Part shown: piece after piece, positions 53,296 to 62,411 of the stretch
Layout of the letters: the number at the start of each line of letters is the position of its first letter
Numbering within the stretch: the first letter of the stretch is position 1
Origin: an uncultured Armatimonadota bacterium
Lineage (GTDB): Bacteria > Armatimonadota > Fimbriimonadia > Fimbriimonadales > Fimbriimonadaceae
Length of the DNA: 64,000 nt
NCBI GenBank assembly: GCA_903899015.1
Contig: CAIUHP010000118.1
Span: 1 to 64,000 of the forward strand
Direction: 5' to 3'
Notes under the pieces: model-generated
What the model saw: the letters and a program-made list of their open reading frames with translations, nothing else
The model's database searches: none
What the model was told of the DNA's origin: nothing
Made by a program: the position numbers and the translations under genes

Positions 53296-53697
53296 TCAAC
53301 GTCGGCATTGCTGCTGAAGTCTTAAATTGAGGACGTGAAAGGAGACTAACAGAACGCCGCCAGCGACTGCAAAGAATGTCGTCATCATTCGCGTCATAAC
53401 ATCTTTGCTCTCATGATCCAAAACAAAATGGCTGATCACGATTGAAATAACACCGGCTAGAAAAATGAGAGCCGGCCGCCACGACCCGTGACGTCGAATC
53501 CCCGTGATGATCGCTAAGCTCGCTACCGACAAAGTGACCGTCAAGAAAATGATGTCCGTCGTTGTGGAGCCGATAAACCCCATCCCGACTACCGACAGAA
53601 CCCCAAGTGCTAGACCGCTAAGCAAGCAATGAATGGCACAGGCAGCGCTTGCAAAAGCACCCACCTTGTCCAGATTCATCCGCCCCATTGCTCGCAT
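53296..53697 (-). CDS. MerC-domain membrane protein
   Basis: A 133-residue protein with four hydrophobic helices. The first helix holds C20AIHC24, the MerC signature. MerC proteins import mercuric ions in mercury resistance; chromosomal relatives often have unknown roles. The second cysteine pair of true MerC is not evident, so transport of mercury is doubtful. ATG codons at 53697, 53688 and 53679 are all possible starts. A CsoR/CstR-like operator at 53710-53726 lies 13 bases upstream, suggesting metal- or sulfur-responsive control. No other mer gene is near. Confidence 0.75.
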   Translation of the reverse strand: MRAMGRMNLDKVGAFASAACAIHCLLSGLALGVLSVVGMGFIGSTTTDIIFLTVTLSVASLAIITGIRRHGSWRPALIFLAGVISIVISHFVLDHESKDVMTRMMTTFFAVAGGVLLVSFHVLNLRLQQQCRR

Positions 53698-55501: not shown

Positions 55502-55663
55502 GCGTACCCTCTCGAACCATAACTCAAGGCTTGGATGGAATCAAGTGTAATAGGGAAAAGAAAGACAGAACGTGATGTTTTGCTATTCTGATTGTCTTCA
55601 AGGGCATATTTCTTCCAAGAATTCCTGCAATGGTTTAGACTGCATTCGCAGGTTCGAACATCG

Positions 55664-56152
55664 ATGCTAATCCGCGATATTATGACGGTTGATCCCGTCC
55701 TCATTGACCCCGACGCTAACCTTCTCCGGGCAGCGGAAATCATTTCTCTCACAGAAGTTACCGACATCATGGTTGTCGGCGAAGGTCAGAAATTTATTGG
55801 TGTTTTTTCGGAAGGAGACATCCTTCGAGCCATGCTCCCGAACGTCGACGAAATCATATCGGCGGGTGGTTCCCTAAAAGACGCATTCGATTTCTTCAGC
55901 AAGAAAGGACAAGCTCTTCGTAACCGACCGATTGCCCCTTACATTATTCGAAACGCCATCGCGATGAGGCCAAATGACAACGCGGCTATGGCTGCGACCG
56001 CGATGATGGAGAAACAGATCCGACGGTTGCCAGTTGTCGATGGTGATCGGCTCGTGGGAACAATCTCAAGGTCCGATATTTGTCGAGCTTCCGTGTTTGG
56101 GTTCACCCGGTATCAGCCAGATCCAGTTGTACTTGAAGGTAGTCCTCTCTAA
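55664..56152 (+). CDS. Two-CBS-domain protein
   Basis: 162 residues from the ATG at 55664; an upstream in-frame TTG at 55592 would add 24 residues with no family match. Two CBS motifs are visible: MLIRDIMTVDPVLIDPDANLL..VVGEGQKFIGVFSEGDILR, and NAIAMRPNDNAAMAATAMM..RRLPVVDGDRLVGTISRSDI. A CBS pair normally binds adenine nucleotides and reports energy or redox state. Its stop overlaps the start of the IDO-reductase fusion as TAATG, so the two proteins are made together; it may regulate the fusion through AMP, ATP or NAD(P). Confidence 0.88.
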   Translation: MLIRDIMTVDPVLIDPDANLLRAAEIISLTEVTDIMVVGEGQKFIGVFSEGDILRAMLPNVDEIISAGGSLKDAFDFFSKKGQALRNRPIAPYIIRNAIAMRPNDNAAMAATAMMEKQIRRLPVVDGDRLVGTISRSDICRASVFGFTRYQPDPVVLEGSPL

Positions 56153-59100
56153 TGGCTGCGCAGTCACCCGCGCGTGAGGCGCTGAACCGCGCAATCGCAG
56201 CAAATAAGGCTAACGGGCACGAAAATCTTGGTGCGTTGTCCGAAGAATTTGGCTTTATTCCCGCTACTCGCCCGCTAGAGCGTCTACCCGCTTCTCACTC
56301 TCAGTGGGATGATTTAGCGCATCAGCTTCCTTCGTTGCACCTAACCTTAGGATTAAGGCAAGCCGTCGAAAAGATGGCCACTCTTGACGCCTCAGCGGGA
56401 CACTTGCCCGATGAATTCCTATCTCGAGCGGCACTCGTTCTCAGCACGATCGCCCATGCTTACTGGTGGGTGGAACCAGAGGCACCAGACGAGCTTCCTG
56501 AATGCTTGAGCAAACCTTGGGAGCAAGTTTCAGCTCGATTAGGGCGTCCCGAGGCATTCATGCCTTATACAGACGTGTTCCTTTACAACTGGCGTGCCTC
56601 CAAGGATTGCACAGCATCGGACCTCAAACTAGAAAGGTTAGAAGTTCTGGTTCCGACCTTCGGTAACGCAGCCGAACGAATCTTCCTGCTTACACAAGTT
56701 GAAATTCACGCTCACTGCTCGGCAATTGTCGGAGCAGTCGTGCGTGCTCAAGAAGCCGTTATCGCTGACGACCCTCACAAACTGGGCTCAGAGCTCCTTT
56801 CAATCGTTGATTGCCTCAATCACATCACCAACTATTCCCTCCTTAAAATTGACGCAGATCCTTACAGTCCAACTTACGTCGATCCAGTCGTTTGGTCGAA
56901 AACGATAGCACGATATGCTGTGCCCATCAAAGAAGGCATTCAAGGGCCGAGTGGTACGGCTTCCCCGTTATTCCAGCTTCTTGACATCTTCGTTGGCCGG
57001 AATCAATTCAACTCGCCACTTGGCCAAGCCGCATTACAATCCCGTAAATGGCTCGCGCTCAACCACGTTCAGTTTCTAGATGCGGTCGAACAGGTTTCGA
57101 TTAGGGACTACGTTCGCGAGTGTAGCGACCCAAAGATCAAAGGACTTTTTCAGTCCGTATTAGAAGCCTATGTGGGAGATACCGGCTTTCTTGGTGCCCA
57201 CCGGCTTAAGGCATATGGCTTCTTAGAAACAGCATTCAAGATGGGCCGTACTTCCGAGTATTTGGACAGCCATACCCGAATCAAAGATCGAGGGTGGGAG
57301 TGTTACCATGCCCAACTCGCTCAGTCACGTTTAGAAAGACTCGAAGGAGCCCCAACTCATTGCCAGTTTGGACAAATCGTTTCGAGTGAAGCGACAACTG
57401 CTTCTGCTGATGACCAAGTTAAAAGCGTTATCATCAACACAAAGGATGCTGGCATTCGATTTGAACCAGGGGACCGAGTTGGGATCTTCCCGGAGAACAG
57501 TCCCGAGTTAATTTCCAAGACTCTGAAGGCACTGAAAGCTACCGGCGCGGAGAATATCCGTCTCGATGGACCTTGGAAGTCAACTTGGCCCAGTATTTCC
57601 GGAAACCATGCCGATTCCCTACCTTTAGCTGACCTCCTGCGATACGCGAAGATTTGTCCGGTCACCCGTGATTCCGTACAGACGCTTTTCAAGCTCACCT
57701 TTAACTCCCGGCTTCAGACCATTTTGCATCGCCGCAACGAAACCCAATGGGAGCTTTCAGGCATCCTCGAGATGCTCGCTAAAAGCGGCTTTGACACTCG
57801 AAGACTGTGGAAATCTGAACCGTGGGAACCAGAGAATATCTGCAAGTTAGCCCCTACCTCCATGTTCAAGATGTTTACCGCGGCATCTGCAATGGATGGA
57901 GAAACCGATGACACGGCTCAAACTCTCGAAATCACTATCGGAGAGCTAGAAGAACAAGCTGGCTTCTATCCCAGCTCTACCGAATCTGAAGAGTTCGGGG
58001 AAGCAAGTTCGAGCATCACCCGAAGCACTTGGTACCAAGAAGAGTTTGGAATGTTCGCCAACGGTGCCAACCTCACTCTTAAAGTCGTTCACCCGACACG
58101 CTTCCATTTGCCAATCGATGCGAAGACTCCCATCGTCATGTTCGCTTCGGGACCAGGAATCGCACCCTTCCGAAGCTTCATTCAAGCACGCTCCCGAATG
58201 TCCCAAACGGGCGAAAATTGGCTGTTCTTCGGTGCCAATAATCACGATGAGTTCCTTTATCGTGACGAGATCGAGAGCTATGTATCCAATGGAAGGCTTA
58301 AATTCGAAATTGCTTTCTCTGCCGAGAATATTGAAGCAGAATGGGACAACCTATCAAAGCAGTACAAGTTGGTTACGGGATCTCCTCGATTTGTGTCGCA
58401 ACTCATTGAATCCGAGACTATTGCCGCTAAGATCTGGGATTGCATTCGCACCCGGTCAGAAGGGGGGCTTGAAGCTAGTTTTTATGTCAGTGGAAGTGCA
58501 GGATTCGCCGTTTCAATCATGTCGGCATTGAAGTCGGTTGTCGCTCGGTTCTCGGGAGCCAACGATGAGATGGATGCCGAAGAAATAGGCAAGGTAACGT
58601 TGTTCCGAATGGTCGGGGCGAAGCGATTCATGCAATATGTCTACGCTTCGTACACGCCTTTCGATGAAGACGAACGAACCTACCAAGTTTCTGAGATCGC
58701 TCGCCACAACTCAGACCAAGATGGTTATTGGACAGTTATCAACGGCAAAGTCTATGACGTTACCACCTACCTAAACCTCCATCCTGGCGGGAACACAATC
58801 CTCCGTTTTAATGCGGGACTTGACGCCACAACCGCGTTTGAAAGTGTTCAGCACCACTTGAACTCGGAAATTAACGCCGTACTCGGCATGTACCAGATCG
58901 GTCGAGTACAGCAATTGAACTTTGCCAACTCCTGGGGAGTAGCCGTAGGAGCTGAGGGTCTGCGATTCGTTTCACTCGACTCAGCTCACTTGTCATGGGT
59001 TCAATTCCTCTACCGTCTTGTGGAAATTGAAAACCTAATTGCCGTCGATCTTGCCAGTCTCTACGAACCGCTCACCCAGCATGATTCCGGCCAGAAACTT

Positions 59101-59571
59101 ACTCCTCTCAAATTGCAGATGGTCATGGACACCCATCTTCGGTTTCGACATAACTGCCTCGACGGAGCGTTTTCCCAGGACTTGCACGAGCTGTGGGCTA
59201 ACTCCATCGGACTCTGCGGTCCTCAGGAAAACATTCAATACATGCAAGCGGATCTCAAAGAGATTTACGGAAACTCTGACGCAGATTTCGTTCACAAGAA
59301 AACTCTTTCGCTACGCGATGAAGCTGTCCATCTACTCAGCCAGGAGGCAGAGTCAGTTGAGCGCAATACGGGAATCATTCAGACGATCCTCAATCACGAC
59401 CTAAATTATCTCGCCTCGCTTAAGCGAATCGTAAGTGACTGCGTGCGAGTTTTTGAGACTTACGAACACGCCACCGCTACCTTCGGCAACGAAGAGCTTC
59501 TCGATACGATCCGGCAAATACCCGCGATTACTAAAGGCTATTACGAGTCGATGGCTAACGATCTGGCGTAA
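56152..59571 (+). CDS. Indoleamine-dioxygenase-like / FAD-NADPH reductase / cytochrome b5 fusion
   Basis: 1139 residues. Residues 1-380 align by eye with IDO: SRAALVLSTIAHAYWWVE, YTDVFLYNWR and GAHRLKAYG, with His350 at the proximal haem ligand and Arg254 near IDO1 Arg231. The pocket residues Phe163/Ser167 of IDO1 are not kept (about Arg176, Leu180). Residues 400-835 form a CPR/sulfite-reductase-type module with FEPGDRVGIFPEN, FAD motif KMFTAAS (Arg replaced by Lys), GPGIAPFR (667-674) and LFFGANN..FLYRDEI, but no flavodoxin domain. Residues 842-920 are cytochrome b5 (YWTVINGKVYDVTTYL, HPGG His877, second ligand His901). The last 215 residues are helical and unknown. Predicted: NADPH to FAD to b5 to dioxygenase haem. 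Confidence 0.85.
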   Translation: MAAQSPAREALNRAIAANKANGHENLGALSEEFGFIPATRPLERLPASHSQWDDLAHQLPSLHLTLGLRQAVEKMATLDASAGHLPDEFLSRAALVLSTIAHAYWWVEPEAPDELPECLSKPWEQVSARLGRPEAFMPYTDVFLYNWRASKDCTASDLKLERLEVLVPTFGNAAERIFLLTQVEIHAHCSAIVGAVVRAQEAVIADDPHKLGSELLSIVDCLNHITNYSLLKIDADPYSPTYVDPVVWSKTIARYAVPIKEGIQGPSGTASPLFQLLDIFVGRNQFNSPLGQAALQSRKWLALNHVQFLDAVEQVSIRDYVRECSDPKIKGLFQSVLEAYVGDTGFLGAHRLKAYGFLETAFKMGRTSEYLDSHTRIKDRGWECYHAQLAQSRLERLEGAPTHCQFGQIVSSEATTASADDQVKSVIINTKDAGIRFEPGDRVGIFPENSPELISKTLKALKATGAENIRLDGPWKSTWPSISGNHADSLPLADLLRYAKICPVTRDSVQTLFKLTFNSRLQTILHRRNETQWELSGILEMLAKSGFDTRRLWKSEPWEPENICKLAPTSMFKMFTAASAMDGETDDTAQTLEITIGELEEQAGFYPSSTESEEFGEASSSITRSTWYQEEFGMFANGANLTLKVVHPTRFHLPIDAKTPIVMFASGPGIAPFRSFIQARSRMSQTGENWLFFGANNHDEFLYRDEIESYVSNGRLKFEIAFSAENIEAEWDNLSKQYKLVTGSPRFVSQLIESETIAAKIWDCIRTRSEGGLEASFYVSGSAGFAVSIMSALKSVVARFSGANDEMDAEEIGKVTLFRMVGAKRFMQYVYASYTPFDEDERTYQVSEIARHNSDQDGYWTVINGKVYDVTTYLNLHPGGNTILRFNAGLDATTAFESVQHHLNSEINAVLGMYQIGRVQQLNFANSWGVAVGAEGLRFVSLDSAHLSWVQFLYRLVEIENLIAVDLASLYEPLTQHDSGQKLTPLKLQMVMDTHLRFRHNCLDGAFSQDLHELWANSIGLCGPQENIQYMQADLKEIYGNSDADFVHKKTLSLRDEAVHLLSQEAESVERNTGIIQTILNHDLNYLASLKRIVSDCVRVFETYEHATATFGNEELLDTIRQIPAITKGYYESMANDLA

Positions 59572-60636: not shown

Positions 60637-61488
60637 ATGGATGTCTTCGAAATAAAGAACAAGGAACTCGTGGAAGAGTTGATGGCTCGACGGAGTGAAC
60701 ATCGATTTCCAGTTCAGATTCGTTCAGCCGCCAAGCGGTTTGCCCACGAGCTTCTTGCAGTCCTTTTCCCTCACTTCACCGACCACATACAAGATAGTGC
60801 CTCGCAATTGGACTCTGAAATCCAGAAACTGGAGGCAACACTCCGAGATATTCTGGGCTCTCTAAGCGACATCTATCCAAAAAGCCCTGAGTGTGTAGTG
60901 AGGACGTTCATTGACAACCTCCCAAGCATCTACCATGCTCTACTCCTTGATGCTAAGGCAATTTATCATGGCGACCCAGCTGCGGTTAGTGTCGACGAAG
61001 TGATCCTTGGATATCCTGGCTTCTATGCCATTGCCATTCATCGAGCCGCCCACGAACTCTACAAGTTGAAGTTTCCTTTGCTGCCCAGGCTGCTGGCTGA
61101 ACATGCCCATCATCACACTGGCATCGACATCCATCCGGGAGCAACCATTGGTCGCTCTTTCTTCATCGATCACGGGACTGGCATCGTCATTGGTGAAACG
61201 GCCCTTATCGGCAATGGAGTGAAGTTCTACCAAGGTGTCACTCTTGGTGCCCTCGTCGTTCAGAAGCATCTATCCAATCGAAAGAGGCACCCGACGATCG
61301 GTGACAACGTTGTCGTGTATGCAAACGCCACCATTCTTGGCGGGGAAACTGAAGTGGGTCATGACAGTGTCGTAGGCGGTAACGCCTGGATCACCGAGTC
61401 TATCCCTGCCTTCTCCATTGTAGGAAGGAACAGCGACGTACGACCGCGTAAGCCAGGAGCGGAAGCGGATATCGAATTTAACATCTAA
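60637..61488 (+). CDS. cysE: Serine O-acetyltransferase
   Basis: A 283-residue hexapeptide acyltransferase that makes O-acetylserine for cysteine synthesis. The N-terminal helical domain (about 1-165) is longer than in the short EpsC type. The left-handed beta-helix has [42 protein letters not shown] and [17 protein letters not shown]. His in DHGTG is the catalytic base. cysK follows after 11 bases, so both steps of cysteine synthesis are cotranscribed. The C-terminus (DIEFNI) ends in Ile, the residue known to dock into CysK. Confidence 0.95.
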
Positions 61489-61499
61489 GGAACCAAAAA

Positions 61500-62411
61500 A
61501 TGAAGGCAAACAACATTCTAGAGACAATCGGAAATACGCCTCACGTCAAGGTTAATCGCCTTTTCGGAGACAAGCACCATGTGTGGGTCAAACTTGAGCG
61601 CGCAAACCCAGGAGGAAGCATCAAAGATCGTATCGCCCTGAGCATGATCGAAGCGGCCGAAAAGGACGGTTCTCTCAAGCCAGACGGTGTGATTATCGAG
61701 CCAACTTCTGGAAACACTGGAATTGGATTGGCCATGGTTGCAGCAGTCAAAGGCTACAAATTGATTTTGGTTATGCCCGAGTCCATGTCAATCGAACGAA
61801 GAAGGCTCATGGCAGCCTATGGTGCAACGTTCGAGCTCACCCCACGCGAACTCGGTATGAAAGGTGCCATCAACCGGGCTCTTGAGCTCACCGCGGAAAC
61901 TCCCGGCTCGTTTATGCCTCAGCAGTTTGATAATCCTGCAAACATAAGGATTCACCAAGAGACCACCGCGCAGGAGATTCTCGCCGACTTCCCGGACGGT
62001 ATCGACTACCTCATCACCGGCGTAGGTACAGGCGGACACATAACGGGCGTGGCAGAGATCCTGAAACCCAAGTTCCCGAACCTCAAAGTTTTCGCAGTCG
62101 AGCCCACAAAATCACCCGTCATTTCAGGCGGTCAGCCAGGTCCTCATAAGCTACAGGGCCTCGCAGCCGGATTTATCCCAACGAACCTTCACACGGACGT
62201 TCTCGACGGAGTCATCCAGGTAACTGAAGAGGCAGCCTATGACTACGCAAAGAGAGCGGCGCTCGAAGAAGGTCTCTTCATTGGAGTTTCGTCTGGTGCG
62301 TCACTTGCAGCGGTTGCTCAGAAGCTTGATGAGATTCCCGAAGGCAGCACGGTCCTAACCTTTAACTACGATACGGGTGAGCGCTACCTGTCTGTCGAAG
62401 GACTGTTCTAA
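61500..62411 (+). CDS. cysK: Cysteine synthase A (O-acetylserine sulfhydrylase)
   Basis: A 303-residue fold-type II PLP enzyme making cysteine from O-acetylserine and sulfide. The PLP lysine is Lys42 in [12 protein letters not shown]. The substrate loop is PTSGNTGIG, and the phosphate-binding loop [10 protein letters not shown]. All CysK hallmarks are present. A good ribosome-binding site AAGGA lies about 8 bases before the ATG. It forms an operon with cysE and ends 7 bases before the convergent TPR gene. Confidence 0.97.

Follow-up and report, generated by a model that had tools for sequence, protein, structure and literature searches.

A stretch of 64,000 nucleotides (hereafter the window) from an uncultured Armatimonadota bacterium, positions 1 to 64,000 of contig CAIUHP010000118.1 in assembly GCA_903899015.1, contains a stop-free open reading frame (ORF) at 56152-59571 on the forward strand that encodes a single protein of 1139 residues. 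This protein joins a haem domain of the indoleamine 2,3-dioxygenase (IDO) superfamily to a flavin adenine dinucleotide (FAD)-NAD(P) reductase module, a cytochrome b5 and a C-terminal orphan domain. The architecture is real and conserved and, as judged by a full-text literature search, apparently undescribed; it is a variant of the IDO superfamily and not a self-contained IDO1. We felt that the best reading, with a probability only slightly above one half, is a haem oxygenase from a separate IDO-like clade, self-sufficient and with a His ligand, that is driven by NAD(P)H and acts on a substrate other than tryptophan.

Pfam assigned residues 29-335 of the fusion to IDO (E 2.5e-37), residues 663-732 to NAD_binding_1 (E 1e-9) and residues 847-919 to Cyt-b5 (E 1.5e-19). 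NCBIfam cysJ matched residues 413-726 of the window copy (E 1.4e-30), and FAD_binding_1 matched residues 417-465 with an E value of 1e-4, under the family cut-off. These assignments place the haem domain (residues ~29-400) at 56236-57351, the CysJ/CPR-type reductase module with its connecting region (residues ~413-833) at 57388-58650, the cytochrome b5 domain at 58690-58908 and the C-terminal domain (residues 917-1139) at 58900-59568, all on the forward strand. An assembly accident can be excluded because the same domain order recurs in six other full-length proteins, 35-47% identical to the window copy, in two phyla. An earlier note on this DNA, made without database searches, had described one ORF with an IDO-like domain, an FAD-NAD(P) module and a cytochrome b5, and the Pfam and NCBIfam matches and the six further copies bear this out. 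It had overlooked the 223-residue C-terminal domain and the adjoining gene for a CBS-pair protein.

The N-terminal part was matched to IDO by sequence and by structure. Its phmmer E value against human IDO1 was 4e-16. The full-length AF2 model (four sequences) had a pLDDT of 49.7 and is good for the IDO fold alone, not for domain packing or pocket geometry. In this model the IDO part, whose confidence is mixed, matched IDO1/IDO2 in Foldseek over ~330 residues (E 1e-10), and VIA gave Z 24.3 against IDO2 (336 residues, root mean square deviation 5.0) and Z 23.2 against IDO1 (337 residues, 4.8). The superfamily match that the earlier note had wanted checked by structure prediction was thus found (VIA Z 22-24). 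The pocket and the placement of His350 were read from an alignment of the seven fusions, 19 stand-alone bacterial IDOs and one human IDO1 fragment, the model being too unreliable for this. His350 (57199-57201) was invariant in 7/7 fusions and 19/19 stand-alone bacterial IDOs; the human fragment stops short of His346, and the match of the two residues runs via the bacterial enzymes. His350 is the predicted proximal haem ligand, as had been proposed.

Arg231 of human IDO1 secures the tryptophan carboxylate, and the GTGG motif is fully conserved in IDO and tryptophan 2,3-dioxygenase (TDO) (PMC5700043). The Arg231 column contained Arg in 19/19 stand-alone IDOs and Ala or Gly in 7/7 fusions (Ala253 in the window copy). 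Arg254, which had been taken for the conserved arginine, is the residue beside this column and is itself unconserved, being Arg, Pro or Thr among the fusions. GTGG, in the JK loop, was present in 18/19 stand-alone bacterial IDOs, the remaining one being cut short, and absent from 7/7 fusions; 5/7 fusions have GRS(V/M)T near its place. The Gly262 column was Pro in 6/7 fusions and Ser in one. Because of these three changes, IDO1-type tryptophan recognition appears to be lost. In addition, the Phe226 column was Trp in 7/7 fusions, the loop before the GTA motif was ~20 residues shorter, and the distal position, Ser in the human enzyme (Ser167) and His in bacteria, was Gln in 6/7 fusions (Gln182 in the window copy) and Thr in one. 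The Tyr126 and Asn133 columns were kept in all fusions, and so was the Phe163 column (Phe178 in the window copy), so that of two pocket residues earlier thought to be unconserved, Phe163 and Ser167, only the second has changed. By descent the fusion belongs to the IDO superfamily, yet judged by these residues it would not pass for a tryptophan dioxygenase. The loss of Arg231 and GTGG in every fusion speaks against the all-in-one IDO1 that headed the earlier note. Better matched by the evidence is the note's fallback of a substrate that may not be tryptophan and a possible monooxygenase-like reaction. The window copy has lost the GRSVT motif of the other fused IDO domains, although its ORF is intact.

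The reductase module was closest to the flavoprotein of sulfite reductase. Against the E. coli protein (1ddg) phmmer gave an E value of 1.2e-23 for the module of the window copy and 4e-28 over the whole module for the orthologue at locus L015. Pfam found no flavodoxin or flavin mononucleotide (FMN) domain in the fusion at E values up to 1, in agreement with the earlier note, and the region ahead of the FAD module is the IDO domain. Because the FAD part passes the FAD_binding_1 cut-off in two orthologues (E 8e-11 and 3e-13), the module is best regarded as a genuine CysJ/CPR-type reductase. The FAD motifs are degenerate in the window copy, with KMFT for RxYS (residues 572-575, ~57865-57880) and GEAS for the GTAS of most orthologues (residues 617-620, ~58000-58011). 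The window copy and the Fimbriimonas copy have the weakest flavin motifs of the set. At the NADPH 2'-phosphate site (Ser-Arg...Lys-x-Tyr) the Ser is kept, the Arg is lost in most copies, where AFS is followed by A, N or G, and the Lys is partly aligned. The module has an NAD(P) part, as proposed; its electron donor may be NADPH, as also proposed, or NADH, Ser-Arg being mostly lost.

The b5 part matched cytochrome b5 type B (phmmer E 1.4e-15) with HPGG and the second His aligned. The predicted haem ligands His877 and His901, 24 residues apart, are conserved in all complete copies, as the first reading of the sequence had it; HPGG is HAGG or HVGG in some copies. The C-terminal domain of 223 residues is conserved in all copies, with His995, Arg997, Asp966, Lys1091 and Glu1102 invariant, and a profile search of 291 Armatimonadota genomes found it solely inside the fusion. 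AF2 predicted a beta hairpin followed by a helical bundle (pLDDT 75, pTM 0.77). The domain had no sequence match in Pfam or PDB and no convincing structural neighbour in Foldseek (best E 0.08); VIA matched it to assorted helical bundles with Z up to 8.4, no more than is common for such folds.

The six other full-length fusions comprise two in Armatimonadota and four in three Chloroflexota genomes. The Armatimonadota copies, in a Fimbriimonas metagenome-assembled genome of the same genus and in Armatimonadetes bacterium AVDCRST_MAG63, are each 47% identical to the window copy. Chloroflexi bacterium 54-19 has two copies (37-39%), and Chloroflexota genomes G532 and G632 have the others (35-38%). 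Sampling covered Armatimonadota and Chloroflexota, and other phyla hardly at all. Fusions occurred in 3/291 Armatimonadota genomes and 3/400 Chloroflexota genomes, where a contig end also carried one fragment. These counts are a lower bound, since the two peptide patterns of the contig scan were narrow and failed to pick up copies that were found later. The architecture is rare and patchy, yet conserved. In a maximum-likelihood tree the fused IDO domains formed a single clade with support of 100/100, which a long branch sets apart from the stand-alone IDOs, with long-branch caution for the human IDO1 fragment. The copy in G632 (L021 1102-1890) carries an FHA domain at its N-terminus, ahead of the IDO domain (Pfam E 2e-19), the only one of the 7 copies to do so. 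An apparently split version in G376, a stand-alone ORF with b5 and C-terminal domains, was rejected: with the contig ending there, it is probably a truncated copy. No plasmid record contained the fusion, the matches listed being CysJ-type or b5 stretches.

The CBS-pair protein (~162 residues; Pfam CBS E 6e-23, two stretches) is encoded at 55664-56152 on the forward strand, and its stop codon and the ATG of the fusion share 1 nt (TAATG). The longest ORF begins at 55592, and the ATG at 55664 is conserved in most orthologues. In five other loci the gene immediately 5' of the fusion, in the same orientation and separated from it by anything from a few bases to a few hundred, encodes a homologue 52-78% identical, giving 6/6 loci whose upstream DNA was searched, the window included. 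No other neighbour was seen to recur across the fusion loci. With its fixed CBS partner and orphan C-terminal domain, the system looks like a two-gene unit under regulation.

The domains, the haem and b5 ligands, the loss of the tryptophan clamp and the operon can all be read from the sequence, and from these a mechanism is proposed. NAD(P)H would reduce the FAD of the CysJ-like module, from which single electrons would reach the IDO-type haem on His350, most likely by way of the fused cytochrome b5. Once ferrous, this haem would bind O2 in a remodelled hydrophobic pocket and oxidise a substrate that is not tryptophan, or is not bound like tryptophan, and is probably not an amino acid. Dioxygen insertion by IDO and TDO takes one priming electron and none after, while the same fold, when it turns over as a monooxygenase, uses up electrons (PMC12921851). 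Unlike an IDO with its priming reduction only, the fusion would probably need electrons at every turnover in a monooxygenase-like manner, because the covalent NAD(P)H-FAD-b5 chain is kept at 35-47% identity in two phyla while the tryptophan clamp is lost. The CBS-pair protein of the same operon would probably gate activity upon binding an adenosyl ligand. PMC13142367 notes that IDO1 works in vitro with NADPH-CPR, cytochrome b5 being optional, and cites work on the reduction of IDO1 in trans by b5 and CPR. The relatives MarE, PrnB, TyrH and SfmD carry out other reactions on a His-ligated haem (PMC11791213).

Several points weigh against this oxygenase. Substrate, cofactor and activity are all predictions from sequence. 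Flavin binding in the window copy would be the weakest link, given KMFT and a FAD_binding_1 match under the cut-off. That b5 passes electrons to the haem is an assumption. The model of the full-length protein (pLDDT 50) is too poor for domain packing. No recurring pathway gene was seen beside the CBS gene, hence there is no metabolic context for a given pathway. The CBS and FHA associations would suit a sensor too.

Of the specific alternatives, the strongest is a nitric oxide (NO) dioxygenase or a related enzyme that detoxifies a gas. The protein would then do on the IDO fold what flavohaemoglobin does on the globin fold, its fused chain returning the haem to the reduced state each time NO has been oxidised. 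Flavohaemoglobin likewise has a His-ligated haem and an FAD-NAD(P) module in one chain. The distal Gln, the loss of the amino-acid clamp, the patchy occurrence of a self-contained gene pair without pathway neighbours, and a catalase-peroxidase-like gene beside one copy (from its translation) would all suit such an enzyme. However, Pfam found no globin match in the fusion, its N-terminal part being IDO, and no NO-stress regulator or denitrification gene was seen recurring in the neighbourhoods. The IDO-typical Tyr126, Phe163 and Asn133 columns, needless for an enzyme that handles only gas, are also kept, and we regard this alternative as unlikely. A broader statement that takes in both activities, namely that the fusions are haem monooxygenases (or NO dioxygenases) on the IDO fold, self-sufficient, His-ligated, driven by NAD(P)H through FAD and b5, switched by the CBS partner and equipped with a helical domain, which would set them beside P450 BM3 or flavohaemoglobin, stands at even odds.

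Scarcely better or worse placed than the NO dioxygenase, and likewise doubtful, is a redox or gas sensor whose haem and flavin states would be relayed by the CBS protein and the C-terminal helical domain, with FHA as a further element in one copy. The CBS-pair gene fixed alongside the fusion, the FHA domain, the orphan helical domain and the lack of pathway context are consistent with this. Against it, a sensor could do with less than a full route from NAD(P)H through FAD to b5, the polypeptide showed no output domain (kinase, cyclase, DNA-binding or other), and FHA is on just 1/7 copies.

A tryptophan (or indoleamine) 2,3-dioxygenase with its own activator, the proposal of the earlier note, could draw on the IDO fold, the proximal His and several kept pocket residues, on the ability of b5 and CPR to activate IDO1 in trans, and on a kynureninase-family gene in a genome with no other IDO or TDO, but it is improbable because the Arg231 column is Ala or Gly, GTGG is absent (both in 7/7 fusions) and the distal position is Gln182, and the fusions form a long separate clade. 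The fusion is a single copy in its own genome and the sole IDO-family gene detected there. The kynureninase-family gene of this genome (G000:C78:148872-150023, L040) has a counterpart in the other genome of the genus with a fusion (G013:C64:19098-20240, L041), and translations place both among sugar-ABC-transporter and oxidoreductase- or dehydrogenase-like genes. Many genomes of the genus that lack IDO and TDO have such genes too. The kynurenine pathway was therefore rejected as a link, and for the same reasons, its commonness in the genus and its sugar-transport cluster, the gene does not rescue tryptophan as substrate.

The self-sufficient oxygenase that we prefer was compared with known systems. 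With IDO1, IDO2 and the bacterial stand-alone IDOs it shares the fold, the proximal His and the Tyr126, Phe163, Asn133 and Asp274 columns, whereas it lacks Arg231 and GTGG, has a distal Gln and a shorter loop before the GTA motif, carries reductase, b5 and C-terminal domain on one chain, has a CBS partner and forms a separate clade. IDO1 is reducible by b5 and CPR supplied separately. PrnB, MarE, TyrH, SfmD and TDO, the His-ligated haem-dependent aromatic oxygenases, follow the same principle of O2 or H2O2 chemistry on a His-ligated haem, the His of the fusion being assigned by alignment. The available part of PMC11791213 indicates that the superfamily has left tryptophan dioxygenation before, and describes none of these enzymes with a fused reductase or b5. 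Self-sufficient P450s of the P450 BM3 type also unite a haem oxygenase and a CPR-like FAD-NADP module in one polypeptide; the fusion differs in having the IDO fold with a His ligand, not P450 with Cys, and b5 in place of the FMN domain, at the opposite end of the reductase. Flavohaemoglobin (Hmp) has a globin fold, no b5 and a reductase of another subfamily. The reductase module has its closest relative in CysJ, the sulfite reductase flavoprotein, with which it shares both the connecting region and the RY(M/L)QD end, but it lacks the FMN domain and does not keep the Ser-Arg of the 2'-phosphate site. The literature search found no description of an IDO fused to a reductase or b5, as the earlier note had supposed for this domain order.

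PMC13142367 describes the cellular reduction of IDO as still unclear. A natural IDO-fold protein with its own reductase and b5 would offer a single-chain system for electron transfer from b5 to IDO. If the proposed mechanism is true, the IDO fold is able to run on a continuous electron supply, and biocatalysis based on P450 fusions could have a His-ligated alternative in this protein.

Other genes lie near individual copies. Downstream of the fusion in the window (60637-62411, forward strand) translations resemble serine acetyltransferase and cysteine synthase (cysE-cysK); a link to sulfur assimilation was rejected, these genes not being neighbours of the fusion in other loci. A link to phage defence was rejected as well, with no PADLOC match. 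At L015 11546-13723, on the reverse strand, a catalase-peroxidase-like gene (from its translation) adjoins one Chloroflexi copy and is followed by a Fur-like regulator. Upstream in the window, the reverse strand at 53296-53697 encodes a membrane protein resembling the MerC family of mercury resistance.

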